In this document: positions 28,349 to 58,700 of the stretch, one piece after another
How the letters are laid out: each line of letters begins with the position of its first letter
Numbering within the stretch: position 1 is the first letter of the stretch
Assembly: GCF_963675165.1 (NCBI RefSeq)
Contig: NC_087377.1
Location: 7,891,122-7,955,121, forward strand
Direction of reading: 5' to 3'
DNA length: 64,000 nt
Source: Halichondria panicea
Lineage: Eukaryota; Porifera; Demospongiae; Suberitida; Halichondriidae
Notes under the pieces: model-generated
What the model was told of the DNA's origin: nothing
Databases searched by the model: none
Seen by the model: the letters and a program-made list of their open reading frames with translations, nothing else
Translations under genes and position numbers: made by a program

Positions 28349-28499
28349 TTTCTTTTTTTTTTTTTTTTGGGCGTGAAAGCTCTCCATCTCGGGGCTAAGA
28401 AAAGATTACATTGTACAAAAGAAGGAGGTAGTTTAGTGATAGTAAGTATATAGCAGTCAAAAATAAAAACAAAGCGAATATAAGTAGTTCATAGATGAA

Positions 28500-30431: not shown

Positions 30432-30569
30432 ACAGTCGATACCAGGCCCTCTCTTCGAGCGAAGAGCGGCCTGGAATCGAGGCTAGGCTGGGGCAGCTTG
30501 CTAAAGTCCAAAAAGGCCCCAGATAGAATAGTCTCCACCACCGATCGCTTGAGCGGTAGGATCCTCGAC
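30432..30569 (-). pseudogene. Possible DIRS-like gag N-terminal fragment with a palindromic MITE
   Basis: About 30487-30569 on the minus strand reads VVETILSGAFLDFSKLPQPS, which resembles a block preceding the QCF.Y block in DIRS-type gag proteins, so it may have been joined to 27842 before the LINE arrived. The adjoining 30432-30486 is a palindrome (CGATACCAGGCC...GGCCTGGAATCG) ending TAGCC on the minus strand, a small MITE. Confidence 0.35.
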
Positions 30570-31314: not shown

Positions 31315-32411
31315 TCGACAGCACCACAATGGTGTCCGGGGTTTTGCCAAGCCACCAATGACATCGAAGCAGAGCAGGAGGTGTCTGCCAGACCGGCCAG
31401 AGTGCTGACTCCTATAGCGCATAGCGCTCCCAGAGCATGGGAAGCGGGCATGGACCCTAGGTGCAATGCTGCGAGGGTCAAATACAATACCCAGGCCGCC
31501 TTTCTCTTCACGGCCTAGAATCGAGGCTGCATGGACTAGGCCCTCATAAATTATGCTTGGAATAAATTTTTGCTCGATTAAGATCATTACATTTTACATT
31601 ATAAGATAATCACATGGATATGATGAAGAGTTAGTAAGTATTGCTTTAACTTTTAGGTTCAAATTGTGGACTTTTTTTGGTCTTTTGCGATTGTATTGAC
31701 GGTGAAGTGAGGGATGTCTGAAGGATATCAGAGAGTGTACATTGCTTTGATGATGTTTCAATCTTTTTTGTCAATGACTCGCACACCAAAGGATGTTACT
31801 TTTGGAAGTGAAGACAACGCTATGCGGTGGAACTCTTTGGCTCTAAAAGTATATTAGGAGCATAATACAGACAGCAATTGCCTGTTCTCTGGTCTGTTCT
31901 CTCACCGGCAGGTCTACATTATTGTGTGAACCGGCACAAGGGTTGGGTAATTCTCATATACTGTATATACTTACAATAGCTTCCCGTTTAGAAGTTCCTC
32001 ATACATTAATCTTTCTGATTATGCCGATATCCATATCTAATGTTTGCCTATAATTGAATGGTCGTAAACGTGCCATATGTAGACGCACTTCTCCATACAC
32101 GGTTATACGCACAATGTTTGTTTTATACGTTCTAAGTATACATTTTTGAATAGACTAGGGAGACCGGAGAATCCTCTCGTTTGGTATATGTCTAGGAATA
32201 GGCTAGTGAACACCTGGATGTTGCTTCCCTCCCTGTATTGAGATACCGTATAGTGGGTAATTTTTGTTGGTGCAAATCTTCGCACAAACTACCCATTTAT
32301 AATTATATATTTCGTATTTTGACGTTGAACCTATATTGTGCCGTAGGTGCTCTACTGATAAAAATAAGAAAACTTCCACCATACGAAAATTGCTCACTAT
32401 AACCATAGATA
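31315..32411. other. Retroelement scrap, then non-coding stretch
   Basis: 31315-31490 on the minus strand continues the gag-like text upstream of the hAT-like insertion but has stops. 31490-31535 is a palindromic TAGCCTCGA-type MITE copy. 32190-32217 shares an inverted stretch (TAGGCTAGTGAACACCTGGA) with 39238-39268. An M4-like end lies at 32246. No host gene was seen. Confidence 0.4.
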
Positions 32412-32585
32412 TGTAACAATTATTCATTGATTATAATATTATTCATTGTTTTTGTGACAGTTGGTCATGTGATGTGACAGAGTCTTGATATGATAAAATT
32501 AACAGTGAAAGTGAGCATGGAGCAAGCTGCTTTTATCTAGTTGCATCGCCTGCAATAAATAGTGTTAGTGGCCGTAGCCGTCACA
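32412..32585 (+). repeat. 5' LTR of the Ty3/Gypsy element
   Basis: 174 bp, TG...CA ends, matched to 38703-38876. CAATAAA at about 32552 could serve as the poly(A) signal. Directly after it, TTTGGCGACCCTGCCAGGAC is the expected place of the primer-binding site. The tRNA was not determined. Confidence 0.95.
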
Positions 32586-32615
32586 TTTGGCGACCCTGCC
32601 AGGACCTGTGTGTTC

Positions 32616-33764
32616 ATGTCAAGGCGTGAGTTGCAGGCTTTGACCCAAGACTCCGGACACGTGTTGTTACGAAAACGGTTGAGAACTACTCATACGGAGA
32701 GTATAGAGACCATGGAACAGTTACAGACAGATTTGGAGACACTTCGACAAGAGTTGGCTGCTGCTAAGGAAGAATCCAAGAAGCAGTTGGAGGAGATAGA
32801 GCAGCTTCGAGCTGAAATGACGGAGACGACCCGTACCCATCGCATTCAAGTAGAAGAGGCGACCCGGAACCGTGAAGAAGAAATCCGTGCGCTGCTCCAA
32901 GGACAGCTAGAGGAATCTGAGACAAGAGCTGAGCTAAAGCATTTGAGGGCTCTGGAGCAACTTAGAGTTGAGCATCAAGAGGCGATCCACCGAGAACAGA
33001 ATTAAGTGGACAGAGAGCGACGACAAGCTCAAGAGAGGGAACAAACCCTGACTGATGCGTTTGAATTAGAGAAGTATAATCTACAAGGACAATTGGAAGC
33101 AGTTACTGCTGAACTACGATCACTTCAGGAAGAAGTTGACTCGGAGGATGACCCGTCTATTGACGATGAGGCGGAGGTTGGACATACCACACCGCTAGAG
33201 AGGGCAGAACCCTCAAGTACCCCCCATATGGAGAGAGGTACCGACCCAACTGAAGATCGAGGAACTGAAAGAACTGATCGAGGAACTGAAAGAACTCGAG
33301 GAACTGAAAGAAGAACTGAAGACCGAGGGACTGAAAGAAGCACTGATCGAGGAACTGAAAGAACTACCGATCGAAGAACTGAAACTGATACACGAAGAAC
33401 AGAGCCACCAGGAGGAGAGGAACGACTGCTGCCCCCTGCTGGAAGAGAGTCTCCTAGTGAGTCATTACTTGTAGCGACAATGACAAGGCTTTTGGAAGCT
33501 CACACAGAGGCAATTGCTGCCCAAACACAAGCTACAGCTGCCCAGCACCTACCACCTACCACCCCTAAAGGCCTTTACCGGTGAAGGGAAACAAATGGAA
33601 GAAGATGGATTCGAGCGTTGGATTGAACAGTTTGAAGAACGAGCTAAAGTTGCCGGATGGAGTACTGAGCAAAAGTTACATCAGAGTTACATCAGATTAA
33701 ATTGTTATTGGAGAAAACGGCTCTGAGAGTTCTCCGTGCTCTCCCAGACATGGACCAGAGTCTG
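32616..33764 (+). pseudogene. Ty3/Gypsy gag, disrupted
   Basis: From ATG 32616 a coiled-coil-rich frame runs to an in-frame TAA at 33003-33005 and stays open after it to 33584. The typical Gypsy gag core (FTGEGKQ, ERWIEQFEERAKVAGWS) lies in the next frame from about 33560, next to a doubled CACCTAC. A further frame change occurs near 33690-33705. A 33250-33400 stretch encodes a minisatellite of RGTERT-type repeats. Gag would form the particle shell, but this copy cannot encode it in one piece. Confidence 0.75.
33250..33400 (+). repeat. Coding minisatellite within gag
   Basis: Repeats of GATCGAGGAACTGAAAGAAC with variable 15-24 bp units give a charged RGTER/TDRGTER string. Unit length is a multiple of three, so copy number could change without shifting the frame. 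Confidence 0.8.
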
Positions 33765-34036
33765 GGTAGATTATCACATTCGTTACCCAGTCGCTTTACA
33801 GCTATCAGGGCTTCTAACTGTTCTATTGACAAACTGTTCAAATGTGTCTCCTCACTTGGTTTGGTCTCCAGTAGTGCATTACGGGATGTACTGGGGTTAG
33901 AGTTATTTCCACTGTGATTTCCACTGTGATTTCCACTGTGACGGTTTAACTGACTTGACCTCCCGCTTCTGTAAGGGTTAGTGTTTCTCCCAGGTGCTTC
34001 CGGCTGATTCGTAACGAATGTGATAATCTACCCAGA
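33762..34036 (-). other. Inverted segment between gag and pol
   Basis: CTGGGTAGATTATCACATTCG at about 33762 reappears as its complement ending at about 34036. The bases between them are open on the minus strand in the register expected for a gag C-terminus (Asn/Ser-rich, with repeated HSGN) and read as nonsense on plus. The simplest reading is an inversion of about 275 bp. Confidence 0.65.
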
Positions 34037-34048
34037 GACGAAGCTACG

Positions 34049-37000
34049 ATGAATACCGTGACCGTCAACCAAGAACAAAGCCCCAAGGCAGTCGGTCCTA
34101 CAGTGTATGTGCCTGTGAACGTATGTGGAGTGCCTGTAGAAGCCATGTTGGACACTGGTGCTCAGTCTACCATAATCTCTCGAGAGTTGCTACACGAAAT
34201 TGTACGTCACCTCCGAACCGAAGACCAGCCACTACCTGAACTAAAGACACCCTCTGCGAGACTCTATGGCAAGGATGGAGTGGAAGGCGGCAGAGAGATA
34301 GTGATCACTGCCCAGATTGATGTAGACATTGCCGTGGATGGTGAGTCAGTTTGTGTACCTGTATTTGTACAACCAGGAAGTTCCCAACCCTTATTGTTAG
34401 GCATGAATGCTATACCGGCCTTAAGCTTTTCGTTGTTGAGACCTAATGGACAATCCCTCATAGCAAGAAGTAACCCTAACCCGGAAATATCTATTGTGCG
34501 GTTAGTGAAAGGTGTTATAGTACCCAGCTTGAAAGGCAGTTTTGTGAGAGTCAAAATCGACAATGTACATGCCCTACCTGGAGGTTCTGTTTTGTTTGAA
34601 CCAAGTAATGGTCAGCTTGAGCCTAAGGGTTTGTATTCCCAAGAGTCCCTTATTACTATTGACGATGATGGTTGTATGCTAGTCCCAATGGTGAATGTGC
34701 ATGGTGCCTCGACTCAACTTTTGGAGGGCATGGAGATAGGGTGTGTACAACCTTTGGACGTTGTGCCTGTTTTGAAACCCGGAGATGTTTGTTGTACTAA
34801 TACTACATGTGCATCTGTAGACACCGTTGTTAAGACCTCCGAACGTATGAACCAAATTAAGACTGTCTTAGGTATTGATTCCATGATCCTTTCGGAAGGA
34901 CAGCAAATTCAGCTTACCCAATTGCTTTATGATTACTCTGATGTATTTGCCCTTAATGGTGCCGAGTTAGGTTGCACCAATGTAGTGCGCCATTGCATTG
35001 ATACCGGAGATAGCCACCCAGTAAAGCAACAACCCTATCGCACCCCATTTATCCACCGAGAAACGATCAGTCGAATGGTAGAAGAGATGGAGGAGCAAGG
35101 TGTAGTGCAACCCTCTATGAGCCCATGGGCCAGCCCCGTTGTAATAGTTCCCAAGAAGGACGGTAGCAAGAGGTTTTGTGTCGACTATCGCCGATTGAAT
35201 GCTGTCACTAGACGAGATGTATACCCTCTACCCCGGATTGATGATATTTTGGACGCAGCAGGAGGTGCCAAGTATTTCTCTTCGTTAGACCTCGCCTCAG
35301 GATATTGGCAAGTAGAGTTGGACCAAGAGGCACGCGAGAAGTCTGCATTCACGACTCATCGAGGATTGTTTGAATTCACAAGAATGCCATTTGGACTTTG
35401 TAATGCCCCAGCGACCTTTCAGCGACTAATGCAGGCCACACTGGCTAGACTGGAAGGAACGAGCTGTTTTGTCTATTTGGATGACATCCTTGTCGTGTCC
35501 GATACATTCGAGGATCACCTCAAGCATCTCTCGGAAGTGTTTATGAGGTTGAGAAGAGCTGGTTTACGTCTTAAACCAAAGAAATGTATCCTTCTTCGCA
35601 AAGAAGTCCCTTATCTAGGGCATGTACTGTCTGCTGCTGGAGTCCGACCAGATCCTGCCAAGATCGACACTGTTAAAAACTATCCAACCCCCACTGACGT
35701 GACGAAGATACGACAATTCTATGGCCTTGCTAGTTATTACAGAAGATTTATCTCTGGATTCGCACGCATAGCCCACCCTCTCCATCGCTTGACCAGAAAA
35801 GACGTCCCCTACGAGTGGAGTCCAGACTGTGAGACGGCCTTCGAACGCTTGAAGGAGTGCTTAGTGACAGCACCTATTCTCTCCTACCCAGAGTGTGGAG
35901 CAGGCAAGCAGTTTGTGTTGGAGACAGACGCCAGCGGACTTGGCCTTGGTGCTGTGTTGAGCCAAGAGAAAGAAGGACAGCTCCATCCCATCGCATATGC
36001 CTCCAGAACGTTAGACATCCACGAGTGCAACTACGGTATATCCGAATTGGAAACACTTGGTCTTGTCTGGGCTGTACGACACTTCCGCCCATATGTCCTT
36101 GGACATCATACTGTTGTGTACACTGACCATGCAGCATGTACTTCGTTGTTAAACAACCCCCGACCCACAGGGAAGTTGGCTCGCTGGGCACTCACCATTC
36201 AAGAGATGGATTTAGAGATAAAGCACCGGTCAGGAAAAAGCAATGCCAATGCTGATGCCCTTTCGCGGAACCCGATCATCAATGCTGTGGAGACGTTTGC
36301 TATGACCATTGGAGAGGATGAAGCCATCCCACGACCCGATGTTGAACAGATGACCAAACTCAAGGAAGCTCAACGGAGCGACCCAGAATTACTAGACTTG
36401 TGCCGATACCTTGAAGCTGATGTCCTGCCAACGGATGAAAAAAGAGCTAAACGAATTGTCCTCGAAAGTGATCGTTTTGAGTTGATACATGGTGTTCTAC
36501 ACTATGAACCCCCGACGTCCATAGGCCGCCTGTGTGTTGTAGTCCCGAGAAGTGATCGTGACAATCTTTTACAAGAAGGCCATGCCAGTTGTTTTGCCGG
36601 ACATTTCTCTGCCAAGAAGGTGTATGATCGCCTGCGAAGGCACTATTGGTGGAAGGGTATGCGAGCAGACGTGTACCACTTTTGTCGGAAATGTTTAGTC
36701 TGTGCCAGTCGGAAGGGTCCTGGTAGAGCTGTTCGACCACCCCTTGTACCTATTCCTATTGGAGCTCCATTCCACCGTGTTGGAGTTGACGTGCTGCAGT
36801 TGCCAGTTACTCACAAGGGCAATCGTTACGTTGTTTGTTTTGTGGACTATCTCACCAAGTGGGTTGAAGCATTCCCCATGGCTGACCAAAAGGCCGATAC
36901 TATAGCCAGAATTTTGGTTGAGCAAGTCGTTTGCAGACACGGCGTTCCCGAACAATTACTTTCAGACAGAGGAACCAACTTCCTTTCCGAGTTGATCAAA

Positions 37001-37645
37001 GGAGTGTGTGATGTACTTGGAATCAAAAAGATAAACACCTCAGGTTATCACCCGCAAACCGATGGTCTAGTTGAAAAATTCAATTCGACACTTGTTAGTA
37101 TGATCGCTAAATGCTGTGATACTAAGAAACGTGACTGGGACGATCATCTACCATACCTTCTGTATGCGTATCGAACAATGATGCAAGAGTCCACCCAGGA
37201 ATCACCATTCTATCTTTTGTATGGCCGAGATGCACGAATACCTACGGAGACGGGATTGAGTATGCCCACACCCGTGTATGAGCTGGATGCAGAAGATTAT
37301 CGGACTGAACTTGTTTTGAAACTTTCCAATGCGTGGAGTATTGCTAAAGAGAAGATTGAGAGAGCACAAGATCATCAGAAATTACAGTATGACAAGCACA
37401 CCCGGAGAAGTGAAATACAAGTAGGCGATCGTGTGATGGTATTCATGCCAAGCAAAGTGCAGGGTAAAAATAGGAAGCTCGCACGACCATACCACGGCCC
37501 CTACAGAGTGTTAAATGTAACGCCTACGAATGCAGAAGTAGCCTTGATCGACAGGCCACGTAACCCTTCCATATTTGTGTCTCTGACCCGAGTTCGCAGA
37601 TGTTATGATGACATGGATGACCACTCGTGGACAGGTAGCAACTAG
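34049..37645 (+). CDS. pol: Ty3/Gypsy Pol polyprotein (protease, RT, RNase H, integrase)
   Basis: An open 1198-codon frame. Aspartic protease LDTGAQSTIIS near residue 35, RT with FVYLDDILVV near residue 476, RNase H beginning FVLETDASGLGLGAVLSQ near residue 626. Integrase has a zinc-binding HHCC domain (GHFSAKK...CRKCLVCASRK) and a DDE core with SDRGTNFLS and DGLVEKFNSTL. It ends with a GPY/F-type module (YHGPYRVL). These make the cDNA and insert it. The ATG used is the first in the open frame. The frame is open further upstream to about 34010, consistent with gag-pol continuity before the inversion. A tail of the polyprotein is probably cut off at 37645 by the R1 insertion. Confidence 0.95.
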   Translation: MNTVTVNQEQSPKAVGPTVYVPVNVCGVPVEAMLDTGAQSTIISRELLHEIVRHLRTEDQPLPELKTPSARLYGKDGVEGGREIVITAQIDVDIAVDGESVCVPVFVQPGSSQPLLLGMNAIPALSFSLLRPNGQSLIARSNPNPEISIVRLVKGVIVPSLKGSFVRVKIDNVHALPGGSVLFEPSNGQLEPKGLYSQESLITIDDDGCMLVPMVNVHGASTQLLEGMEIGCVQPLDVVPVLKPGDVCCTNTTCASVDTVVKTSERMNQIKTVLGIDSMILSEGQQIQLTQLLYDYSDVFALNGAELGCTNVVRHCIDTGDSHPVKQQPYRTPFIHRETISRMVEEMEEQGVVQPSMSPWASPVVIVPKKDGSKRFCVDYRRLNAVTRRDVYPLPRIDDILDAAGGAKYFSSLDLASGYWQVELDQEAREKSAFTTHRGLFEFTRMPFGLCNAPATFQRLMQATLARLEGTSCFVYLDDILVVSDTFEDHLKHLSEVFMRLRRAGLRLKPKKCILLRKEVPYLGHVLSAAGVRPDPAKIDTVKNYPTPTDVTKIRQFYGLASYYRRFISGFARIAHPLHRLTRKDVPYEWSPDCETAFERLKECLVTAPILSYPECGAGKQFVLETDASGLGLGAVLSQEKEGQLHPIAYASRTLDIHECNYGISELETLGLVWAVRHFRPYVLGHHTVVYTDHAACTSLLNNPRPTGKLARWALTIQEMDLEIKHRSGKSNANADALSRNPIINAVETFAMTIGEDEAIPRPDVEQMTKLKEAQRSDPELLDLCRYLEADVLPTDEKRAKRIVLESDRFELIHGVLHYEPPTSIGRLCVVVPRSDRDNLLQEGHASCFAGHFSAKKVYDRLRRHYWWKGMRADVYHFCRKCLVCASRKGPGRAVRPPLVPIPIGAPFHRVGVDVLQLPVTHKGNRYVVCFVDYLTKWVEAFPMADQKADTIARILVEQVVCRHGVPEQLLSDRGTNFLSELIKGVCDVLGIKKINTSGYHPQTDGLVEKFNSTLVSMIAKCCDTKKRDWDDHLPYLLYAYRTMMQESTQESPFYLLYGRDARIPTETGLSMPTPVYELDAEDYRTELVLKLSNAWSIAKEKIERAQDHQKLQYDKHTRRSEIQVGDRVMVFMPSKVQGKNRKLARPYHGPYRVLNVTPTNAEVALIDRPRNPSIFVSLTRVRRCYDDMDDHSWTGSN

Positions 37646-38377
37646 AGCACTAAAGTGCAAACCCTCGGCTGGTGACATGATTATAAAGAAACCAGAAGAC
37701 TGATATAATGCAGCGCAGTGCATATAGTGATGTTGTTATCATCATCATGCATGACTTGCACAGCAACTCAGGAGCAATAAAACTAAACTAGACTGGAGGC
37801 GTGCTGAAACATTTGAGAACAAGTAGTACTATAGATAATATGCACTGTGGATTAGGATCACAGCAAAGAAGCCTGGAGTCTCAGAGAAATATGGCTCCAG
37901 GTCCTGCATGGATCCCAGTCAGCTAAAGCAAGCTTTCTACTTTAGTGACCCTGTTCCATTGTTTCTGGACCTGGTACAGGATCACTTCAGTTATAAGTAA
38001 CGCATGTGCAAGTTCTGTTCAAGCTACATTTTGCTCGCTTTTATTAGACAAAGAAGCTTTAACACCGAAAGCTTAGAAGTACTGACTTGTTATGTGGAGG
38101 CTACCCATGCTGTAAACGCAGTGCTAGAGCATCCAGGTAAGCAGACCCAGTCACAAGCTTGTTCAAGCTTCTTAGCTTTTGCTCGACAAAGAAGCTTTAA
38201 CATCACAATCTGTCACTATTTAAACCAAGATATTGTTGTGTGAAGGCTATCCATGCTGTAAACGCAGTGCTGTGGCATCCAGGTGAGTAGATATACTCGT
38301 GACAAACAGACAAACAAACAAACAAACAAACAAACCAACAGACTACTATACCCGTGGCCGCCCACGCGCCTCGGGTA
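37646..38377 (+). repeat. Dispersed repeat R1, copy C, the most complete
   Basis: It starts at AGAGCACTAAAGTGC, just after pol text, and ends at GCGCCTCGGGTAA, just before a frame that looks like the original pol C-terminus. It matches copies A, B, D and E. The left end has a GCACTAAAGTGC hairpin and the right end a (CAAA)n run plus one GTGGCCGCCCACGC unit. No inverted termini, no clear target duplication, no coding. Confidence 0.8.
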
Positions 38378-38595
38378 ATAAAAAGTCCCAGAAGAAGGCC
38401 CAACAAGAAGTACCCCCTGATCAAGAAGTGCCACTACCACCCCCAACAGTAGAGAATTTGGACGAGGATTTAAACGAGAATTTGGACGAGAACACCCCCT
38501 CGGAACCCCCTGAGCCGTCACCTTTGAAGGAGTCAATAAGCCAGAATACCCGAGCAAGGACCCGCGGTAGGAAGGAAAACCCGGAAGTTAAGTAA
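38378..38595 (+). pseudogene. Displaced C-terminal tail of Ty3/Gypsy Pol
   Basis: An open frame starting KKSQKKAQQEVPPDQE and ending RARTRGRKENPEVK is basic at both ends with an acidic Pro-rich middle, a usual low-complexity tail after Gypsy integrase. It is separated from pol by R1 copy C. The assignment rests on position and composition only. Confidence 0.45.
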
Positions 38596-38702
38596 CGTTT
38601 CTACATTTAACTGTTAGAATACCATTATTTATCTTATTCAGTTATTAGCTGTATGGTTGTGTTTTGAGAATCGAGGACGATCTTCAGAGTAGGAGCGGGA
38701 AT

Positions 38703-38876
38703 TGTAACAATTATTCATTGATTATAATATTATTCATTGTTTTTGTGACAGTTGGTCATGTGATGTGACAGAGTCTTGATATGATAAAATTAACAGTGAA
38801 AGTGAGCATGGAGCAAGCTGCTTTTATCTAGTTGCATCGCCTGCAATAAATAGTGTTAGTGGCCGTAGCCGTCACA
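38703..38876 (+). repeat. 3' LTR of the Ty3/Gypsy element
   Basis: 174 bp matching the 5' LTR. The purine run AGTAGGAGCGGGAA directly before it is the polypurine tract for plus-strand priming. Confidence 0.95.
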
Positions 38877-39224
38877 GATAGAAGAGTAAGAGGGATTGGT
38901 AACGGAAGCACATTGAATCTGCAGTAAAACCTCGAAAACTATTCGCGTTATGCCCTATAAACGAGGCTATTTTGCCGGGTAACTCGCTCAAAATAAGAAA
39001 GTTGTGTTTTCTCGAGACATAATCTTTTTCAGCAATATATAACACGCCCAGTCTGTGAGCCATGTGTTGTACTTGCTAATGACTGACCACACCCAGTAAA
39101 AAGGGACATTCCAGTAAAGTTTTAGGCGAACAGCTGTTATTTATAGTCTTGTATTGCTAAAACGTGTAAGCGTGCTGCTAAAATAGGTATAGACCTTTTA
39201 ATGAGTAGACTGAGCATATAAATT
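38877..39224. other. Non-coding stretch starting with an M1 end
   Basis: GATAGAAGAGTAAGAGGGAT is the rest of the M1 end in which the Gypsy element landed. The remainder shows no gene. Confidence 0.6.
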
Positions 39225-39757
39225 ATGCTAGGGAAGCACATCCAGGTGTTCACTAGCCTATTCCTATCAGAAAAGGTTATCTGGACCGGTGAATGTGATC
39301 AGTCTTTCATAGCTTTGAAGGAAACTCTGTTGAAGCATCCTGTCTTAGAGGTATTCGATCCCAACAAACAGTTTCTGTTACAAACTGATGCATCAGAACG
39401 AGGCCTTGGGGCGGTTTTGAGTCAGCGAGATTCGGAAGGACAAGAAAACCCAATCGCATTTGCAAGTCGGAAATTGCAGCCGAGGGAAAGGAATTACGCA
39501 ACAATAGAAAAGGAGTGCTTGGCGGTTGTGTGGGCTCTTAAGATCTTCTATACATACCTTTATGGTCGGAAAATTGAAGTACAGACGGACCACCAACCTC
39601 TCGCCTGGTTACACAAGATGCAGAACGCGAATGCCCGATTGACGCGTTGGGCGCTGGCTATTCAGCCCTATCAACTGGAAATCACCCATCGTCGAGGAGT
39701 TTCGAATGGCAATGCTGATGGACTGTCACGAGCTGGCCCCCTTTTAGGAGGGAGGGA
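39225..39757 (+). pseudogene. Second Ty3/Gypsy element: RNase H fragment
   Basis: The open frame to 39773 contains LLQTDASERGLGAVLSQRDS, IEKECLAVVWALK, VQTDHQPLAWLHK and SNGNADGLSR, the RNase H domain of a Gypsy element of another lineage than the one at 34 kb. RT in front is lost and the integrase behind it is missing. The frame runs straight into a purine tract (about 39747-39757) and an LTR, so an internal deletion joined RNase H to the 3' end. Confidence 0.85.
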
Positions 39758-40034
39758 TGTGGCGTACTCCTAGTAGCCACTAACCACAAACACTCAATCT
39801 GTGGTCAAGTTGAACTATGTGCTGACTAGAAATATCTTAGTTGTTCTAGAGTATTCTTACACTAAGCAATTCTGGACTATTCTATGTATTGTTCTGGTTT
39901 GTACTAGAACTGTTTTGTTTTGTATTTAAAACAGTTCAGTTTTGTGTGTAAGGTGTGTTATTCGTGCGTGTTCTTTATTGTTCAAGACAGCTATTAAAAG
40001 TCAATTCTCCTATAGTCAAGAGTACTACGTTACA
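39758..40034 (+). repeat. 3' LTR of the second Gypsy element
   Basis: 277 bp with TGTGGCGTACTC...GAGTACTACGTTACA ends, so TG...CA and short inverted ends. The next base continues a Calx-beta-gene exon in frame with its paralogue at 59238, which places the LTR border inside coding sequence. No upstream LTR was seen. Confidence 0.75.
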
Positions 40035-43802: not shown

Positions 43803-46800
43803 TCAAACAGCTGGTATACGAGTTAGAAGCATCGGCTCATCATATATGTGGGGTGGACTAGGACTTCTTTCCGTCATCTGACTGCACATACCGCTTCTGA
43901 TATTCAAAATATTGTAGGCATCATTTTCAGTCAGCAACGTCACTGGATCGTACGCTTCATTTCGCTTTAGACCATCAGAAATGCTTGGCTCCTGTAAAGT
44001 ATATACATGTAGTATATCGAAGATTTATCATACCTGTTTAGTGGGATTTGCTATGCTTGATGCACCAAGGCCTGTGATCAGATCCTGTTTAAAATAGAAT
44101 ATAGTCGCATAATTATACAAGATGAAGGGTTAAATGGTTAGTTACACTCTGTCCCCCTATAATTAGAAACAGGTATCTCACTATAATTCTATAGTAAAAT
44201 GGCCCCCAAATCTCTTCAGCGTCATGTGTCACAGTGCATTCTGGAATTACATTTTGAATTGGCTCCAGTTCCGTAATGGGAATCATGCACGGCTATGACA
44301 CTACAATGACAGCCTATTATTATTATGAGCATGCATGTGGCATTGCCCATGCACGCACGCAGTTATATATAGTCAGTGTCGATGGCCATGCACCTTATGC
44401 ATGCAGTAACGACATTTTGGTACCAAAATTACCCGATAATTGTACGGTATTATCAGTGAACCGTAATCATAGCTGACACTTTTGTTCTGAGACAGAGAAA
44501 CATCATAAATATTACGAGGATATAAGCAATCTCAAGCAAATCTCCATTTTGAACACTTGGAATTTTACATGTATGCATGTCTTTCTAATATTAATTTGTA
44601 CTAAGTTACCTTATCTGTTTTCCTTCTCCAAACAAACACAATGAAGATCACCACTACTACTAGTACTAGGGAAGTAATGAAAATAGCAGCAGCAATTCCT
44701 CCTGCAAGTTTTCAAAATATAATATAATAGCCAGATGTGCATGCATGCCATTGTATATAGGTGATCATTGACAAATACAATGATAGGCTGATTATGTACT
44801 ACGATGAAGGCTCCCTGTGAAGTTAACAAAAAGCATAATATTATAGAGTCTTCATATGAAAATTAATTATTATGTCTATGTGTAGTGCAAATCTGGATGT
44901 AATCATTATGGTGTACTTCAAACTAAAGACAGTAGTATATAGCCAACGTGCAAGGTATAATTAAGCTTCCTATATAGCTTTTATTTGACAAAGAAGCTTA
45001 AAACACCAATTCAAAATCTGCCACTATATCAATAACTTGTTGTGTGTATACTAAACACAATGCTCTGGCAGCCAGGTGAGCATGCAGACTCAGAATTTAC
45101 ACAGACACACAAACCAACAGACTAGCCGTGGCCTCCTATACGCATCTCGAGTTAATTAGTTTGATCACCTACTATCGCTGTCTCTACATCAGGGGTTGCT
45201 GGAGTATGAGCATCTGTACGAGTGTCTGCAAAGGAGACAGTATGATCATTAATTTGTGAAAATCTGATACTGGTATACCTGAGGCAGTAGTAGAAGTGGA
45301 CAAGCCAATGGGAATCATGGTTTTGTATGATGGCACTTCATGAAGTGCATTAGACCATCGTTTGAATATGGCAGCAAAGTAGATTCCCTTAGGTATGCTT
45401 TCAGTGCAGTTTTGGCCAGAGTCATTGACAGTCCGTGGAATCAGTGTGATGCTGCCTTGGTCAAGCCCATATTGGGAGTGGATGATCCCCACACAACTAG
45501 AGCTGCAACTGATGCAAATCATTCCGTTGACTTCAGTAGCATTCATATCCTCTCCTCCTGGATTGGGTACAGCATACACGTGTGTAACAGTATACTTTAC
45601 ACACAATAATTACATATTATTAATATTGTACCCACGGACATTTACCTGCCCTGCGTTCAGTGGTACCATATCGAGTATTATCCAGTGTTTTGGTAGGTAG
45701 AACAGCCGGAAAAATTAGTTTTCTCTCAGGTTTCATAACATCATTCAAATCAAAAACAGCCAACTTGTAAACACGATCAGCAAGGTTACCAACAGTGGAT
45801 GAAGTATTTTCCCTGTACACTGCTTGGTAGTGTAAATCATAAGGGGAGTCAACAGAGTACACAATGGCAACGAAACCAGTATCATTAGACTTTTGAAGGT
45901 AGTTGACAGTGATTGAAACTTCATTTTCCTCCATAATTAAATTGGTCACTTTATACACGTCATGAGTACCTATAGGAAAGAATATTCACAAATAGACATT
46001 GGGGCGCTCTGTGATTCCCCCCCTAGAAACCTGAAAAATTAATGATATGTAAATTTTCATGGTTTGAAACACACAAAAAATCCAAATTGCACCTCAGATA
46101 ATCATTTGTAAAATTCTCCGGGGAACGACCTCCAGACCCCCCCCCTAAATTAAATATATGAAACCCTGACAAGTATACTTACTTATATCCATGGTCATAA
46201 CTGGTGGTATGTTTTGTAGATTAATTTCAGCTAGTAGAGTCAAATTACACCGTCGATGGTGTTCAATATTACAGCTACTACAGTTAAGATCAAGTACAAT
46301 CATCTGTTTATTTCCAGAAACTTCAGTTGACGAATCAGTGGAACAAATACAGGGATCAGCAACTTCTCGGTCAATGTACTGAAGTAGAACGGAATACCTA
46401 TCTGGTACTCGACACTCATGGACGAGCTGCAAATAGGATTGTATATGCACATGCAGTATATCACCGACACCAATTTAATATAAAACAATACCTTGGTTTT
46501 ATAATTCAGCTGTATTAACTCACACTTGCGGGAAATGTCACTTGTAGAGGGTTCAATTCCGTATTTGTAGTGAAATTAACCTCATCAATGGGTATTGCTT
46601 GTGGTTCTGTTGCACAATAAAGTATACGTATTAACAATAACGTTGATTAACCTTACCATAGCTAAACTGTGCTGTGCTTGTGGTTCCATTCAAACTTCCG
46701 TCATTGTTGCTTCGTGGTGTCACAGAAAAGCTGTAAGTACCCACATGATAGGCTACATCAAAAAGATATTGGGTGGTAGTGATGTTACATCCAGACTGCA

Positions 46801-49800
46801 GCATGTTTTCCTCTGTTTCACAAGTGACGTTATACACATCCACACAGTACTGAATGTCTGGTTCAGCAGTGGTCAAGTTCAAGGAGAAGGGAGCATCCCA
46901 GGTGACGTTGAGTTGTAAACAGTTCCCAGCAACATTGCTCACAGTCAGATCAGCGACAGCAGGAAGAGGTCCTGGGTAAATACACAACTGAGTATACACA
47001 TACATTTGTGTGTCAGGATATTAGGGCCGGTATATATATAGTACTACAGCTACATGCATGTATATTCATTAGTGTGAACAATAACACGCAATAATTTACC
47101 TTGCACTTGCAATGTAGCATTTACTGACAATTTGGATATGAACACTCGTCCGTCTCTAACTACTGCCTCACACTGCACAACAATGTTGTTGTACTGTGCT
47201 GTGGCTGGGATAGTCAGTGTTGCTGGGGTATCACCAGACGATGGGGTAAAAGTCACATCAGGTGGGTAATTACCGTCAGTGGGAAACTCTCCATTGAGCC
47301 CCCAATTGTAACTTTGTGCGCCAAGATACCGACACTCGAACACTGCATCTACCCCTTGGGCCTGCACCACTGATACTGGTTGCACCATAAATTGGCATGC
47401 TACAGATACAGTAAAATGCATTCACCGCAGGGTTGAGATTAAAGCACACTGTATAGATCTCACATGTATACCGCCTATAAAATAGCTACCCTAAAGGTGC
47501 CACCGTTTAATCTTAACACCAAACTGAACAGCCTAAGTTATGCCAAATTAATCAACCACCAAGGTAAATTTGAATGTGGTCGCCAGTCTAAAAGCCCATC
47601 TTAATTTTAAGGCGGACAAAGTACTAGGCTCTCATTTGATGCGAGAAAGTATATAGGAAATCATTTTGTTGGAACAGCATTAAAAATGTTAAAGGTCGTA
47701 AAACTTACTTTAGGCCCAGCCCACTGCAACAAAAAAGAAACAGGCGGGCCTGATAACCAAATAATCTGTTTTTTCTGGCCTGACGAGTCGGTACATGGAC
47801 ATGCAAGCAAGGTACATGCATGTATACAGTAGTGTGATTGTGTGTGAACTGCTACAGCTGCTCATTGATCAATAAAGTGCGATTTCTATAAGTTTCTAGT
47901 CACGTTTTCTATGTGTCGAGTTTGCAAAATAATGTAGAGTTACTTATGCAAAGGTCAACCGCGAACGCTTGACCAGCAGCTATGAATTTTAATTTGTCTT
48001 GCTCCAAGAATGCATTTACTAAAGGAACAAAAAAAGGGTTGCACAGGCCAACTCGACTTAATATAGCTCCTTGACTGGCTAACAGTAGCCATAGTTAGGC
48101 TGACTATAAGCACTAGCCTCGTTCCCAGGCCGATCCATCTCCAATTGAACGCTATAGGTCGACAAATGCGTCCTACTATGCATACACTTCTTAATTTTGA
48201 TCTGATCGGAACTCCGACCTGACCAAAAAAATGCAACTAAAGTGCTCTTTCCTGTGAAAATAGAACAGGCTAGACTAGAAGCTTCTAATCAAAAAACAAC
48301 AAAAACAAGTTGACATTCAAACATCTTAGCGTAACCATAGACATAAGAAGGGAGAGGGATGGGAAACGAAGCACGTGCGCACAATCACTTCTGTGTAATG
48401 CCAAAAGTTGATCCGTGTTTCGTCTCTAGACACCCCGCCAACCCAGCGGGAAATGTTATTACTATCATTCACAGCTCCCCACTGGGACTCCTAGTCCTGT
48501 GCTGAGCATCCACGCCTACTGTGCATCATATAGAAGCGTTGTGTATCCGGCTCACCAAGAGCTTGAAAGGCAGTTTTTGAGTGTTGTATTATCGTTTCGG
48601 CTCTATCTAGTGGCTTTGTGTACCTTCTACAAAGAGAGGCTGTGACTACAGCCCAAAATATTAATGATTCCCTCTTTCTTAAGTAGCTGGGCATTGTATG
48701 CAAGTAAAATCAAAGCCACTTGGCTTTAGGTTGGGAAGTAATATTCATTTTTGTCTTAGTGAGCTGGTTTTTGAAAAGCCGACTCTTTGTGTACCCATTT
48801 AGAAAGTTATGTCAATGATTGAATGTAGGTAAATGTCTCTTTGTATTCATTGATAGTTCGTTCATCGTATCGGCACAGTATTTTACGACAGAACTTTGCT
48901 ACATAATTTCCATAATTCTCTATCGTGTCTGTGACTGTACTGGAATACTCAACGGTACAAACAGAGCTCCTCTCAAGAATTTGCCTGTCAAAGCTGCTTT
49001 TTACTGCTTGGAGGGGTCTCACTAACTATTGCTGCTACCTTGTTGTGACTGTGTTCCACTAGCCATTGCTAGCTCAGTAGCTAGTTTATAGCCTAGTACT
49101 ATAGCTAGAAGCATGGGCTGGAGGAAATAAAGAAGAAAACGTTGACCGAAACGCGGATCGTCAATGCTATTTACGTAGCGTTTCCCATCCCTCTCCCTTA
49201 TTATATCTATGGCGTAACAACAACTGACATTTTTTTTACAGAACTGACATTAATCAAAGAGGCTCAAACTAAATACTAAGAGCAGAGTCCCTAGGTGGAG
49301 TTTCAGAAAAGTGTGAACACAGAGGAGGTACGACACAGTCACATGACCAGCCAAAAGGATTATGAATCTCTTTAACTTGTGCATGAATTATCATTCAAGA
49401 CTTTGATATGGTTTTTGGCGTGTATCTTTCAAGAAATACACTTGACGTTTCTAAGATTAGGCTGGTTGATTTTTGGGCTTATACTGACGTGGAATACCAA
49501 TTTCAACAACCACTTAGATATTATTGTAATTCTGTTTTAGAGTGTTTAATAAGTATTCTGTGCCTGCATTCAAGATGCCAATATTTGAGCCTTGATTCTT
49601 ACAACAAATCTAGTAAAACTCCAGCTACTAGCTAGCAACAAATTCACTACTCTAAATTTGTCTCTTTATGGTGCTTACATGCCACCAGTTGAATGTCGTC
49701 ATTGGAGATTGGAAACGGAAGTGATTCACGTGATGTTTTACAATGAAGTCTACATAGTGGCTCTGGGACCATCCGTGTATCTCTTCATAACTCCCGCAAA

Positions 49801-50967
49801 AGCCCGGGAAACTTATTGTGTCCAATGCATACATCTCAGAGCTACCCCCATTACTGAATCACATGCCCCCTGATAGTAGGTATCAATAATATTATTGGAA
49901 ACGAAGAAAATATAATCTCGATTGTCGTGAAGTAGCTAGAGGTACACAGAGCGCTTTTCATGCTTGTGTTCCTATATAGAACCTATGATATAGCTAAGGC
50001 TGTGTAACTAAATAGTCTCCTGTGTCCCAAATGGCCTCGAGTATGAGATGAAAGTTGATGTTTAGCAGCAGAACTGCTCGTGGACTTCTTACAGAGAGCA
50101 AAACAATTCTCATGAATTATTCATGTTTAGCCCTCGTGTTAAAAAGTAAACCTTGATTAAACTGCGGAGATACACGGATGGTACTTTGAGGGTACTTCCG
50201 TTTCCAATCCCTCTCTACTCTATCTATGGCTTAACCGAGTGTCGTACTTCCTCTTGAACAAAAGACTCTAGTACTATGATGCAATACAGCATAATACCAA
50301 TGGTGTAAAGAAGAGAGGGCATGCAACAGCAAAAGAGCCGAGTTCAAACGTGGTGAATGAATGTGCATGATGTGCATGAAATGCTAAAAAATAGAAATTT
50401 TTATTTTTAGCACTGTATGCAAATTCAATTCATCCGACCACGTTTGAATTCTGCTATAGCTACGTGTACGTGTACTGATAGTGAGTTGCATGCCATCTTT
50501 TCTTTTATACGCCCTTGATAATACTAAGTGTAGATTAATTAACATCAGCAAACATAAACAGTGCTCAGACGGTCTCTCCCCTATATAGGAGGAGGGCGGC
50601 TGATTCATGTAGCCTCGAGACCAGCCGTTCGTTATCTGAAAGAACGCCTGGTCAAGTTCTAATGTAGCACTCGTTCTATGGTCCAGGAACTTCTTGGACC
50701 GGTAATTGCCCACACAAGGTCCGTACAAGGTGTATTACCCATGAATATCATTATGATGCTATAAAACGCTGACTTAGCTGGACAAGTTGCACATTAGAAC
50801 TTGACCAGGCGTTCTTTCAGATAACGAACGGCTGGTCTCGAGGCTATGATTCATGAGACTAGATTTACTTACAATAATAGTTACTACTCACTTGTCGTAT
50901 GTGATAGTATGAATGTGAGCATCACTAGTCCAGTCAGTCCCTGTGACCATCTATGATGTGACCCCAT
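43803..50967 (-). CDS. Type I membrane receptor: signal peptide, Ig, FN3 repeats, TM, ITAM-like tail
   Basis: Twelve exons (minus): 50967-50892, 47399-47100, 46971-46657, 46606-46524, 46426-46183, 45969-45646, 45557-45279, 45225-45169, 44701-44610, 44292-44182, 44084-44034, 43991-43803. All have GT-AG borders and fitting phases, total 2121 nt, 706 residues plus stop. Residues 1-25 are a signal peptide (LTGLVMLTFILSHTT), 26-125 Ig-like (VFECRYLG, YNWGLNG, NIVVQCEAV), 126-230 FN3 (LQLNVTWDAP, YSFSVTPRS), 231-339 a diverged FN3, 340-540 two extracellular regions I do not recognise, and about 558-583 a TM helix followed by WRRK. The tail has Y658-DPV, eight residues, Y670-NIL, then Y694-DEP after a Pro-rich stretch. 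It probably sits in the plasma membrane and recruits SH2 proteins when phosphorylated. The ligand is unknown. Intron 1 is 3.5 kb and full of MITEs; the others are short. The Ig-FN3-TM-tyrosine-tail plan matches the gene at 10.9-14.1 kb, and the ectodomain sequences are far apart. Confidence 0.85.
44980..45140 (+). repeat. Dispersed repeat R1, copy D (partial)
   Basis: GCTTTTATTTGACAAAGAAG, ATCTGCCACTAT, AATAACTTGTTGTGTG and CAACAGACTA...CCGTGGCC follow the R1 order. It lies in the intron before the TM exon of the minus-strand receptor. Confidence 0.75.
48335..49212. mobile_element. M1-family element, 5-bp target duplication
   Basis: CCATAGACATAAGAAGGGAG and the complement at the right end (ending ATATCTATGG) share the GGGATGGGAAACG core. 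CGTAA flanks both sides (48330-48334, 49213-49217). It lies in intron 1 of the minus-strand receptor. Non-coding. Confidence 0.85.
49321..49703 (-). mobile_element. Truncated relative of the element at 6947-7478
   Basis: It starts CAGAGGAGGTACGAC and follows the reverse complement of 7478 down to about 7035, then stops abruptly where M1 sequence begins at 49704. One end is missing. Confidence 0.75.
49704..50229. mobile_element. M1-family element, left end truncated
   Basis: GAGATTGGAAACGGAAGTGA begins inside the left terminal repeat. The right end CTTCCGTTTCCAATCCCTCT continues to CTATCTATGG. The interior is the reverse of that at 7553-8240. Confidence 0.8.
50303..50520. mobile_element. MITE related to 13643-13833
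   Basis: GTAAAGAAGAGAGGGCATGC at the left and GTTGCATGCCATCTTTTCTT...ACGCCCTTG at the right. Both receptor genes carry this family in an intron. Confidence 0.75.
50610..50846. mobile_element. Mutator-like MITE with 9-bp target duplication
   Basis: TAGCCTCGAGACCAGCCGTT and complement match over about 55 bp. TGATTCATG flanks both sides. TAGCCTCGA-type ends also mark the small palindromes near 8481, 30486 and 31530. Confidence 0.9.
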
Positions 50968-52719: not shown

Positions 52720-55700
52720 TCGTGTTGGCTGAGTTGGTCACTTTGAGTCCAATGGTGTATGAGAATGACAGATGTGCGTGCAGCTGGACCACCTACCAGT
52801 GGGAAGTATCGTCACTGTGGCACTGACAACACAACCTTTGACTGCTACAGGTATCCATGCAGCAAAATGACTTATCAGCACCCAGCAGAGCTGATGTATA
52901 ATTTATGTAGTGTATGCATGCATATCTTGCGTGTATAATTACGGTTATTTTCCCCATCAAAAATGGTTGGTGGTGAAGCCTCAAAGGCTCACACAGCCTA
53001 ATTATTATATACCCTCTGCTCTCACTAGCTGCTACCCACCCCCACAGAAGATGAGGACTACCTGTCATTAACTGCAACCCTAGAGTGGTACTACGACTCC
53101 CCCAGCGTGGTACAGTGTGTAAGTGTGCCCATCATCAATGACGAGTGTGTGGAAGAGAAAGAAGAGGTGTTCATCATCTCTCTGTCCACGGAGCAGGCGT
53201 GTGTTCAGTTGGGGGCTAATCTGACAACTGTCACCATTCAAGACGATGACGGTGAGTACAGTATATTAAATAGCTTAGTATAAATTAATATGCAGCACTT
53301 GCATGTGCCGAGAATGATCGAATGCATTAAGCAATCTATCTAATTTTATAATTATGCATGTATGCTACTTTAAAAGTGTATGTTTGTCAACTAGTAAGAG
53401 TATTTTGTCATCTTCTTACAGTGCTGGTACTTGACCTCAGACCAGTTGGTGTTGTTAGTGAATCCAATGGCACGGTGGACACCTGTATCTATGTTTGTGA
53501 TGGCCAACTGAAGAGAAATTCCTCCATCATTGTCAGCTTCTGGAATGGAACTGCTCAATGTGAGTACATTTCTTATTATGCTTGTACATTATGGCTGGGG
53601 TGAAAATTCATGTCTTAGGTTCTTAAAACTATGCATACACATGTACATGTATCTATAGGCTCAAAAAGGTATAATCAAGGGTTTCTCCTACTTTGATTGT
53701 TTTGTCGTAAGATTTGTAGCTACATATTAATTTGTCAAATTGTTCTCTATGCTTATCTGTGCAGCAGGAATGTCTCGATTTAATGCTTGTTCACCCTATG
53801 TTACTCTAGACCCAGCAGACTTCGCCAGGCCTCTTCTAACTGAAGAAGTGGTTCTCAGGCCAAACAACACTGGGTCAGACCTCTGTTTCTCAGTGGAGGT
53901 GGTGGATGACCGTGTGTACGAGGAGTTAGAGTATCTCCAGGTGGCTCTGTCTACTGAGGATGAATCTGTACAGTTTAAGGAATCATCTGTTACACTGGAT
54001 ATTGTGGACAATGACTGTGAGTGTATGTATATCCATATGCATAATTATTATTATTATAGTGAAGATTGTATATAATAATTTTTTTATGCTGTATTGCTGT
54101 TTTTGTCAGTTAGCCTATGAAATGAAGAATGGCTCGATCCGAATTAGTTTGTGATTGTAATCATCGCCACAAACACAATGAAACCTACTCGATATACATT
54201 AATTGTATCTGCTACGCTAAACTTCTTAACTTTGTCATCCCCAGGTGTTAACATTACCCTATCCCGTGAGCTGTATGCTGTATCTGAGAGAGATGGTTTT
54301 GTGGAGGTATGCGTGAGTCTGGAGGGAGAGACGGAGGTCACAGTCGAGGCATCTGTCTTCACCATAGCAGGATCTGCTCAAGCTGAATAATTATTATCAG
54401 TGTATAAATCAAGGGCCTAGTGCGTGATATACATACTGTGTTCTACGCCTATACTACTTAAGTCTGCTCAGTAATTATTAGTGGAGGATTAGCAATTACT
54501 TTAGTACCAGTGTATACTATAGCTAACCAATTGTACTTCGCGACTGTTATGCACTATCGTTCAAAGCATGGTTTCCTTCCTACACATGCACAGCTGTGGC
54601 TGACTTCACTTTCGGTGACACTGACCTGGGATCATCTCTTCTGTTTAGTGGTCCGGGTGAGCAGTGTCTCAACCTCACCATCCAAATGGACTCTGCACTA
54701 GAGACCAACGAAGACTTCTATGTAGTGCTGCTCTCACAGCAACTAGCTGTTAAAGTGCTCCAGAGGTCCGCTCAAGTCATCATCTTAGACACACCAGGTA
54801 AGATGCACAATTGTATGCGCAATGTAACTGCACCGCGAAGAACATTACAGAAGTTGAATTTTTATGTCAAGTATAGTTATAAATATGTATCCCATCACTT
54901 CAGGAAATTTGTTGAGGGAATAAACACCTTGATCGGCGTTTAATGTCTACAATTTATTCAGTAGAGGGATTGATTTACTAAGAACAGAGCGGTATTTCAA
55001 ATAATTGTGTATATATGCCTTTATTTTTCTAATAATTATCAATGCTATCCGTCTCCAGTTGTGACGGTGGCGTTCCAGAAGACCAGGCTGGAGTTGCCTG
55101 AGGAGGAGTCTGGAGAAGGGACGGTGTTCCAAGTGTGTGTGGAGGTGCTCTCTCCTGGGATCCTCGAGAGACCAGTGGACGTCTACCTCACTCTGGAGGA
55201 GGGTTCCGCTACTGGTGAGGGTCTGATAACAAGTCTGTATGTCACAGCAAACCTAATTATGGAAATCACAAATCTACACATCAGCGCATTAGCTTATTTG
55301 AATGGGTTGTGAGTAAGTTTGCTCCTTCCAATGACTTCTCCCCTCCATAGCTGATGTTGACTACGTGGACACACAAGAGGTAAACATAGTGGGTCTCACC
55401 ATCACCACACCCCTCCCCTCTGGTCGACGGAGGCGCATGCAACGGCTCACCATTTGTCCAGTGCACTAATCTCAGTCTCCTGGCTGACTCCATTGTGGAG
55501 GAGGATGAGAGCTTCAGTGTGATTCTGGGCTCCTCTGACAATGGGGTCGGTGTGGACCCCACTCCCCTCACCGTGGTCATACTGAACAATGACTGTGAGT
55601 GCTTTGAGGGCTATATAGTGCTGTATGTACATATTATATGTATGCAGTTATGTTTTGAGCGGTATTCTTTATTTCCTGTTTCGGTAGAGAGTGTATGCTT

Positions 55701-58700
55701 AATTATGTGATTAACTGAAACCTACCTGTGCGTGCAATGTTGACTATAATTTTTATTAGACTGTGCAATTAGTGGTTGCCTTTCACTTCGGACAACTTTA
55801 CTTGCTTTCCCAACTAGCTAATTATATTGTTGTGTGTTTGATCGACATTTTCTTGCTTATAGTTGCGAATGTATCTCTGGAGCTTGCTAATTACACTGTG
55901 GGGGAGGATGACGGGTACGTGACTGTGTGTGCCTCTCTGGAGGGGGTCTTGGAAAGGATCATCATCGTCAATATGACCACCACTGAGGACTCAGCACTTG
56001 GTGAGTCTCTTTATAATTATAGTCCTTATATAGACCATGCTACATGTAGCTCATATACGTGTGTCAATAAACTAGATACATTTTTCTGTCATAATATAGC
56101 AATATAACATTAGCAAAAACCAGGTCTGTATATAGGTTTTCCCCCACCCAGCCAACAGTGACTACTCTGCTCTCACAGACTACCCTCTTGAGTTCTCCGC
56201 AAGTGTGGACACTGCTTGTGTGAATGTCTCCATCTTGGAGGAGGACATCGTTGAGCCTGACCAAGTGTTCCAAATATATCTAGCCAGCTATGATCCAGTT
56301 ATCCTCACTCCCAATTCATCAGCCTCTGTGACCATTCTGGATAATGATGGTGAGTCAATTCCCATGGGGTGTCATGCATTTACATACACGTATAATTATT
56401 GATGCACACAATTAATTAAAGCAAACCCTGCACATTCAAACATGTGCATACCAGTCCTATATATATACTTTGTGGTAAATTACATGGCCATGATGCGTAC
56501 TATGTATTAATTGTCAAATTGATTTGCTAGATCTGTTTTCACATACATCTCTTATAATTCAGTGCTAGGTATTGGTCTCAGCTCAGCATCAGTGATGGCT
56601 AGTGAGGTGGCATCTCCTCTCTCTGTTGCCGTAGTGATTTTATCTGGCAGTCTGGAACTAGATGTCACTGTCAGTGTGGCAGCATTCAGTTGGGTCAATG
56701 ACACTGCCACTGAAGGTGAAGGGAGATACGTGTGTGTCTATAGTGTCTGATGTTGAGATAATATAGTTACATTGACCAGTATATTCCTCAGCAAGTGTGT
56801 ATAGTATCCAGTTTTTACTCGAGTGTATAAATAATTCGTAGTCAAAAATTTCTTATGATGTATAAATGTTGACACAGATTTCGACTATCGGTCATTGAAC
56901 AAAACCATCACCTTCCCTTCTGGGTCAGGGGTGGGCTCCATGGAAACCTTTGATGTCATCATTATTAACGACATCATTGTAGAAGAATTGCTTGAAACAT
57001 TCACACTGAGGCTGACCACACCCACTGGAGCACCTGTTGCCGTGATCGAACTGGAGGTGGCCACTGCATTCATACAAGAGGACCTTACTGACAGTGAGTT
57101 GTCAACTCAGTGTGTGTTATTCATGACATGAGGCTTGCAGGGGTCAGGATTAACTTGCCGCAGGAAGGCTGCACAATAAATGCCTAAACAGCTTGATGGT
57201 TGTACAACATATCTGCGACTCTGTGACGGGATAATGTACATGCATGCAGTCCCTCATTTGCCAATTCCCACGTGTAATTCAACTGTCCTTCTCCCCGGCA
57301 GTGTTGGACTACATTGATATCTCTACCACCCTCACATTCTCTTCCGGCACCTCGAGTGCCTGTGTGCAGTTATCGACCATTGATGACAGTACGTACGAAT
57401 CTACAGAAGGGTTGAGTGTAGAGCTGGAGTCCACTGACTCCCAAGTCACTGTAGCCACTCCCTCCGTACTCGTCACTATAGTGGACAATGATGATGGTCA
57501 GTAGTAACAACAGAGCTTCAATGTACATGTACAGTATTTTATTATATACAACACAATTAACCGTACTTGTGCTAGTTATAAATGTATCCCACATGTGTAG
57601 AACTTTTAGTGACAGTACTATACTCAATCTAGATCATGTTTGCCATAAATACTGCAATTTGATTGGCTAAAGGAAGTGTTCTATCCAACTTAGAAAATCA
57701 TGTACTTATTTAGAAAATAATGTACTTACTTAGAAAATCATGTACAGTAGAACCTCGATTATCCGGACACCTTGGTTCCAGAAGCAGGCCGGATAAGTGA
57801 ATATGCCGGATAATCGAATAGATAAACCACGCCTTGATCCACCCACTTTATTGATGAACAGCAGTGCCACATGTTGTCTGCGCATGCGCAAAAGAAAAGC
57901 AGGCATGTCTCCATGGTAACTGCTGCACCGCGCATGCGCATTTGAGGGACACGCCCATTTTCTGAATTATGTAATCTGATTAAAAAGAAAACTGCCAAGC
58001 CGGATAATCGAGGTTCCGGATAATCGAGGGCCGGATAATCGAGGTTCTACTGTACTTCACTTAGAAAATCATGTAGCAAAGATTAGATAAGAACATTCAA
58101 ATCTGATTGGCTAAATACTCATGGGTTGCTATGATCTAGACACTGTTTAGGAAGTTTCCACATGATTTAGAAGTCCTCAGGGCTAGTAGAACCCTCACTG
58201 CGTTCGGGATACTACAACTAGCCCTTTGGGCTTCTAAATCATGTAGAAACTTCCTAAACAGTGTCTAACTATTATATATACACTACCAAATAAGAGTCAA
58301 GTTATGTACATAATTATGTAGTTTTGCTTAAATGCCAGAAGTGCAAGATCGTTTATTTTCACTATTTTCTCTCCCCCTGCATGTAGTTGTGCTTTCCCTG
58401 TCTGCCCCTGAGTCTGTGTGTGAAGGAGGTGGTGTCGTGCAGATCTGCGTCACCTTGGAGACTGACATTGAGAGAGATGTGGAAGCTACCATAGACCGCT
58501 GATGCATTCGCAATTGGTAAATCCTATTGGTACAATGCTATAAAAGCGTTGAGGTATCAACTGTTTATTTGTTGGGAGGGCTATCCATACTAATTATTAC
58601 TGGTACTGTATACACAATAGATGCACAGTAATAGGCATACTCTGGTTACTGAAGGCCTATATACACACGTCGTTGCATGCATTATAATTATGCACAGCTT

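Follow-up and report, generated by a model that had tools for sequence, protein, structure and literature searches.

The last exon of a receptor gene in the sponge Halichondria panicea probably encodes a C-terminal cytoplasmic SH2-docking tail: we read this exon (E12) as an exchangeable tail type on a type I Ig/FN3-like receptor and put the probability of this reading at about 0.6. The exon lies in the window, i.e. the 64,000-nucleotide stretch of contig NC_087377.1 analysed here, whose positions are used throughout, and judged from its sequence it is a real coding exon of a cell-surface receptor, one of a large family expanded in tandem. A preliminary description of this DNA had stressed an ITAM-like tyrosine pair in E12; in our view, the variety of tails carried by near-identical receptors is more striking than the ITAM resemblance.

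Starting with the Ig exon and ending with E12, eleven exons show AG/GT borders and compatible phases, with a total of 1988 nt. The signal exon, which ends in a phase 1 donor GTGAGT, was placed by homology to the paralogue L005 at 50967-50892, 3.5 kb upstream of the Ig exon. With the first exon relocated in this way, the proposed twelve exons in exact frame hold; the signal peptide stands as well, although the ~44-aa first exon formerly implied for it was not found. Because the signal exon lies at 50967-50892, the protein comprises 687 aa, and the two tyrosines, both present but formerly numbered Y658 and Y670, become Y639 and Y651 by arithmetic. The exons are as follows.

50892 to 50967, minus strand: E1, signal-peptide exon MGSHHRWSQGLTGLVMLTFILSHTT with a phase-1 donor; matches the L005 signal exon (70% nucleotide identity over 105 columns, E 1.8e-8)
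47100 to 47399, minus strand: E2, Ig domain; splice sites and phase, PDB profile matches Ig-type by name, Pfam Ig_3 weak and below cut-off
46657 to 46971, minus strand: E3, formerly called FN3-like; splice sites, sole Pfam match an Ig-like model below cut-off
46524 to 46606, minus strand: E4; splice sites, kept in L005, L006 and L008
46183 to 46426, minus strand: E5, ectodomain exon; splice sites, kept in L005, L006 and L008
45646 to 45969, minus strand: E6, ectodomain exon; splice sites, predicted mostly beta at low confidence (pLDDT 59)
45279 to 45557, minus strand: E7, ectodomain exon; splice sites, kept in L005, L006 and L008
45169 to 45225, minus strand: E8, stalk; splice sites, paralogue comparison
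44610 to 44701, minus strand: E9, TM helix GIAAAIFITSLVLVVVVIFIVFVW followed by RRK; splice sites, paralogue comparison
44433 to 44486, minus strand: E10, putative tail exon NKSVSYDYGSLIIPYNYR; splice signals only
44034 to 44084, minus strand: E11, tail exon DLITGLGASSIANPTKQ; kept in L005 and L007
43803 to 43991, minus strand: E12, last exon with Tyr1 (NEAYDPV), Tyr2 (NDAYNIL), Tyr3 (HIYDEP) and the stop; splice sites, copies, constraint

The gene model supports a complete single-pass receptor, as had been described, with a TM helix in E9 that is hydrophobic and contains no charged residue. The Ig domain is likewise borne out by its C-W-C core, as expected of an Ig fold (all 12 sequences compared have C22, W32 and C76), and by a PDB profile search, which returned 31 different chains with E values of up to 1, named as titin, antibody, TCR or sidekick; the best match has an E of 0.00029 (the single one below 0.001), and the other 30 lie between 0.098 and 0.94. 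The AlphaFold model of the domain is weak (pLDDT 65) and gave no Foldseek hits with E <0.001. The FN3 label of exon 46971-46657 is not borne out, its sole Pfam match being to an Ig-like model below the cut-off, and E6 and E7 together gave no Pfam match. Because it has no convincing counterpart in L005, L006, L007 or L008, E10 (44486-44433) is unsupported; skipping it preserves the reading frame. The tail ends at E12, with no kinase domain in it and no kinase in the window among the matches listed, on which grounds a kinase-tailed (RTK) receptor is rejected.

E12 is entered through the acceptor TATACTTTACAG and provides an open frame of 62 aa, EPSISDGLKRNEAYDPVTLLTENDAYNILNIRSGMCSQMTERSPSPPHIYDEPMLLTRIPAV, closed by TGA. 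The motifs attributed to it are present exactly as described: eight residues separate YDPV from YNIL (12 from tyrosine to tyrosine), and YDEP lies downstream. The comparison with an ITAM holds for the spacing, which falls within the 6-8 residues of the rule YxxL/I-x6-8-YxxL/I, but not for the motifs themselves, the first of which has V. In its strict form the rule is matched by none of the three copies of E12 and by none of 70 related tails. Allowing V in the first motif, a pair arises in 0.8% of 20,000 shuffles of E12 and in 3.6% of shuffles of the 104-aa tail with its seven tyrosines; because the motif was chosen after inspection of the sequence, the significance of these shuffles is only modest.

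The constraint on the exon is stronger evidence of its function than this chance test. As a query against the same genome, E12 alone found just 3 copies (window, L005 and L007), whose 54-codon core is 96-98% identical, with 3, 7 and 6 differences per 162 bases, while alignments that include introns and the 3' flank have 76% and 79% identity. Because the core so exceeds the 76-79% range obtained with the flanks, we consider E12 a constrained coding sequence, and the claim of a functional coding tail gains from this constraint across the three copies. The pN/pS values of the three copy pairs (0.008/0.057, 0.024/0.114 and 0.016/0.112) are rough, as they rest on only 1-3 nonsynonymous and 2-4 synonymous differences. 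The view that E12 is functionless, an open frame that is decaying or arose by chance, can draw on the stops or frameshifts seen in several related tails and on the mobile-element frames nearby, but it is highly improbable given the codon-level constraint in the three E12 copies and in 52 intact related tails (pN/pS 0.44 and 0.42 within clusters, 0.65 between them).

Because E12 as a query yielded only three copies, the wider tail family was approached through ectodomain paralogues. The 662-aa protein gave at least 77 exon-wise matches in the same genome, the window gene's own included (genome-search counts are lower bounds throughout), with receptor matches located on contig C1 at 3.44-3.70, 6.34 and 7.0-7.94 Mb and also on contig C8. 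The last-exon tails of L011 and L013 have the same motif order, i.e. NEAYxPV or NEAYxSV, then xAYxxx, then HxYExV, and the L011 tail as a query returned at least 74 matches in the same genome. Our tail set consists of 70 loci, the query L011 among them, that cover 73 of these 74 matches; tails were assigned to receptor genes by proximity and splice signals.

Orthologues had been expected to conserve both tyrosines and their spacing; among these paralogues of the same genome the expectation held for Tyr2 and for the spacing, and for Tyr1 only in part. Tyr2 is a tyrosine in 69 of 70 tails, whereas Tyr1 is a tyrosine in 54, His in 10, Phe in 2 and unreadable in 4. If His or Phe is accepted in place of tyrosine, the two sites lie 10 residues apart in 55 tails and 12 apart in 11; these are the 66 tails in which the distance is measurable, leaving 4/70 in which it is not. 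The 52 intact tails have Tyr3 in all 50 sequences without a gap there, Tyr2 in 51 and Tyr1 in 43, and conservation of Tyr1 is about that of an average column. Tyr3 stands in YDEP in E12 and in YEDV or YEEV in most relatives; we take the YDEP-type site to be one preferred by Src- or Nck-type SH2 domains. A further tyrosine occurs in YVNV- or YVNI-like ends, presumably Grb2-type sites, in 21 of the 52. We read E12 as a multi-tyrosine SH2-docking tail, the binding being a prediction. In the cluster at C1 3.44-3.70 Mb, Tyr1 is replaced by His in 10 of 19 tail loci, as if it were dispensable there.

The ectodomain exons of the window gene and its paralogues are clearly homologous, and an alignment of five tails, three of them E12 copies, has 13 invariant columns. 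Profile comparison of E12 with the tail family gave P 0.0021 in the expected register, with a probability of only 13.5%; E12 is not among the matches of the L011-tail search of the same genome, and its exon starts in phase 0, as against phase 1, by our reading, in those tail loci that show an acceptor. Homology of E12 to the 70 tails, based on short motifs, is probable, not proven.

A true ITAM, in which doubly phosphorylated YDPV-x8-YNIL would recruit Syk through both SH2 domains and activate the cell, is unlikely in the light of these relatives. Its spacing is in range, Tyr2 is followed by L at +3 in all three E12 copies, and a Syk gene is present in the same genome; yet Tyr1 has V at +3 in the same three copies, and the strict rule fails in every related tail. 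Nor is an ITAM the rule of the family: of the 69 tyrosines at Tyr2, 60 are followed by T at +3, 7 by I and one each by N and A, but none by L, and the one His copy has T at +3 as well, so the requirement for a hydrophobic residue fails. Even the relaxed pattern, with V allowed in the first motif and 6-12 residues between, is fitted by only six of the 70 Tyr1-Tyr2 pairs (L020, L035, L037, L051, L072 and L074); some match to it occurs in 19 of the 70 frames, the others pairing Tyr3 with a distal tyrosine or crossing a stop. On present sequences E12 is not a canonical ITAM, the motif being only approximate and without conservation in relatives; the three E12 copies might still act as ITAMs, though this is not the family rule. 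An ITAM can thus be suggested by one tail read alone even though its family lacks it.

A tail that serves mainly to control endocytosis is improbable, though a serious rival. The sequence of E12 does fit both motif types involved, YDPV and YNIL being of the Yxx-hydrophobic type, which we take to be AP-2 motifs, and DPVTLL and DEPMLL presumably of the acidic dileucine type. However, Tyr2 in the family mostly stands in YEQT, a non-AP-2 sequence, and is nevertheless the better kept tyrosine (69/70), and the LL pairs of E12 are absent from the family consensus.

The reading of E12 as an exchangeable SH2-docking tail draws on the comparison of four loci (window, L005, L006 and L008) whose ectodomains are 79-90% identical; identity to the window gene is 81.5% for L006 and 78.8% for L008, and L005 and L006 are 89.9% identical to each other. 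These ectodomains carry two types of tail, a short E12-like one and a long tyrosine-rich one (L006 and L008), so that highly similar ectodomains with different tails, the hallmark of paired receptors, are found here. Downstream of the TM helix, the exon chain of L008 reads STSLLENVYDVDPPLN; REYSIPSEAAG; GPPPIPYENVEL...; PHDQSVES...PVYDVAN...; VVYADLD...VVYALIDE...; and a Death domain (24.9 bits vs. a Pfam cut-off of 22.6), with GT/AG borders and fitting phases as read from the DNA. VVYADL and VVYALI fit what we take to be the ITIM consensus. L006 may be degenerate: next to its Death block it lacks the sequence that corresponds to L008 4207-4584 and makes up the first half of the Death domain, and the 46 aa that remain gave no Pfam match. 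On C8, L012 also combines a tyrosine-rich tail with a Death domain (28.5 bits, over the Pfam cut-off). Death matches number at least 148 genome-wide, and among the matches listed three fall within the cluster span at C1 6.9-7.75 Mb.

The ectodomains and the tails of these loci do not agree on a grouping. Fifteen ectodomain sites unite L005 with L006, the two alternative splits having 7 and 1, but by its E12 sequence L005 falls with the window gene; L005 and L006 are neighbours on opposite strands (C1:7.77 and 7.79 Mb). Because the two groupings conflict, exchange of tails between paralogues would explain the four loci best. Tail exons may also have moved between receptor families, as suggested by L007, where E12 lies beside an Ig-like/FN3/Sushi receptor; this arrangement, with E12 downstream of such a receptor, is found in L007 only. 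A closely similar Ig-like/FN3/Sushi receptor occurs both at L007:2443-5244 and in the window at 10761-13046 on the plus strand.

Proteins that could read such tails are encoded in the same genome, which has at least 71 SH2 matches, and the suggested search for tandem SH2 domains yielded Syk, Shark-type kinase and SHP2 genes. L085 has N-SH2 and C-SH2 exons, each with the corresponding SYK domain as best PDB match (128 and 127 bits), and at L085/L094 (C4:4840500-4857999) kinase exons, recognised by eye, follow the two SH2 exons. L009 has SH2, ankyrin, SH2 and kinase exons, an order that we take to be the Shark architecture. In its first exon, the ankyrin part best matches designed ankyrin proteins in the PDB, and the SH2 part ZAP-70/SYK (~72 bits); the top matches of its kinase are a chain named EGFR (287 bits, two stretches), ZAP-70 (180) and SYK (175); because an EGFR chain is the top kinase match, the Shark label comes mainly from domain order. 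L010, with SH2, SH2 and phosphatase exons, is by its sequence SHP2, the best match of the second SH2 being PTPN11 (176 bits). L084 has two SH2 stretches and is PLC-gamma-like by domain order. The putative Syk-type gene, with two SH2 and kinase exons, is notable in itself; PMC5978004 places Syk in invertebrates only together with CARD-CC/Bcl10, and PMC8662651 lists its origin in chordates.

We envisage that engagement of the ectodomain by a ligand would lead Src-family kinases to phosphorylate the tail tyrosines. Tyr1 and Tyr2, 10 or 12 residues apart, might then jointly hold a tandem-SH2 protein (Syk, Shark or SHP2) or, alternatively, each singly bind a separate SH2 protein, and Tyr3 would bind an SH2 domain of the Src or Nck type. 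The tail of E12 would be one of at least two exchangeable types on nearly the same ectodomain, the longer tyrosine-rich tail of other paralogues offering, in the best-preserved one, ITIM-fitting sites and a Death domain.

The tail resembles that of vertebrate ITAM receptors (CD3, FcR-gamma and Ig-alpha/beta, with Syk/ZAP-70) in being short, in its tyrosine pair about 10-12 residues apart and in the Syk gene encoded alongside it in the genome; it differs in that the first motif has V at +3, the relatives lack the +3 rule, and the tail sits on the ligand-binding chain itself, whose TM helix is uncharged. Draper/CED-1 with Shark in Drosophila likewise combines a tyrosine tail with an SH2-ankyrin-SH2-kinase gene; the Draper ectodomain is presumably EGF-like and unrelated to that of our receptor. 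Draper and Shark were reportedly the subject of a 2008 study by Ziegenfuss. According to PMC5978004, Shark mediates ITAM-dependent signals. The sponge family resembles paired immunoreceptors (FcR-like, KIR and SIRP; fester/FcoR of Botryllus) in its near-identical ectodomains with different tails, some of them ITIM-fitting, and in the presence of an encoded SHP2, but its long tail has a Death domain, and the activating or inhibitory polarity of its tails is putative.

It is tentatively conceivable, though doubtful, that dozens of tandem genes form a large system of paired receptors in an early-branching animal, with tails exchanged through recombination or gene conversion and signals passed on by Syk/Shark and SHP2; if so, swapping of activating and inhibitory tails, and a direct Death-domain signalling branch, would exist near the base of animals. 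PMC12065747 describes the allorecognition proteins proposed for sponges, cnidarians and ascidians as not conserved and their mechanisms as unknown, reports candidate receptors with ITAM/ITIM-type motifs for Hydractinia Alr, a likeness to the tails described here, and argues that ITAM/ITIM signalling is a convergence point from cnidarians to mammals. A clustered family of multi-tyrosine receptors in a sponge, together with ITIM/Death tails and their potential readers, is a concrete candidate for signalling of the ITAM/ITIM type; among the matches listed from the open-licence literature, no description of a comparable sponge receptor family was found.

Several further loci deserve mention. Adjoining the receptor gene, at 53029-56107 of the window on the plus strand, are seven Calx-beta exon frames, one over the Pfam cut-off and six below it; sponge aggregation factors are, we assume, Calx-beta proteins. 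Retroelement-like frames occupy 27168-39773, one of them on the minus strand at ~27-30 kb, and those at 33959-37645 and ~39.2-39.8 kb are presumably Ty3-like pol. At C1:15.5-17.4 Mb, at least 26 PF07714-type kinase matches (open frames of 276-493 aa, ~125-132 bits) form, by their sequences, a separate kinase expansion. Among the cathepsin/silicatein-type loci, L086, L089 and L090 have intact cathepsin sites, and L091 has an SSWAF-containing exon, the 5' end of which may be intronic.
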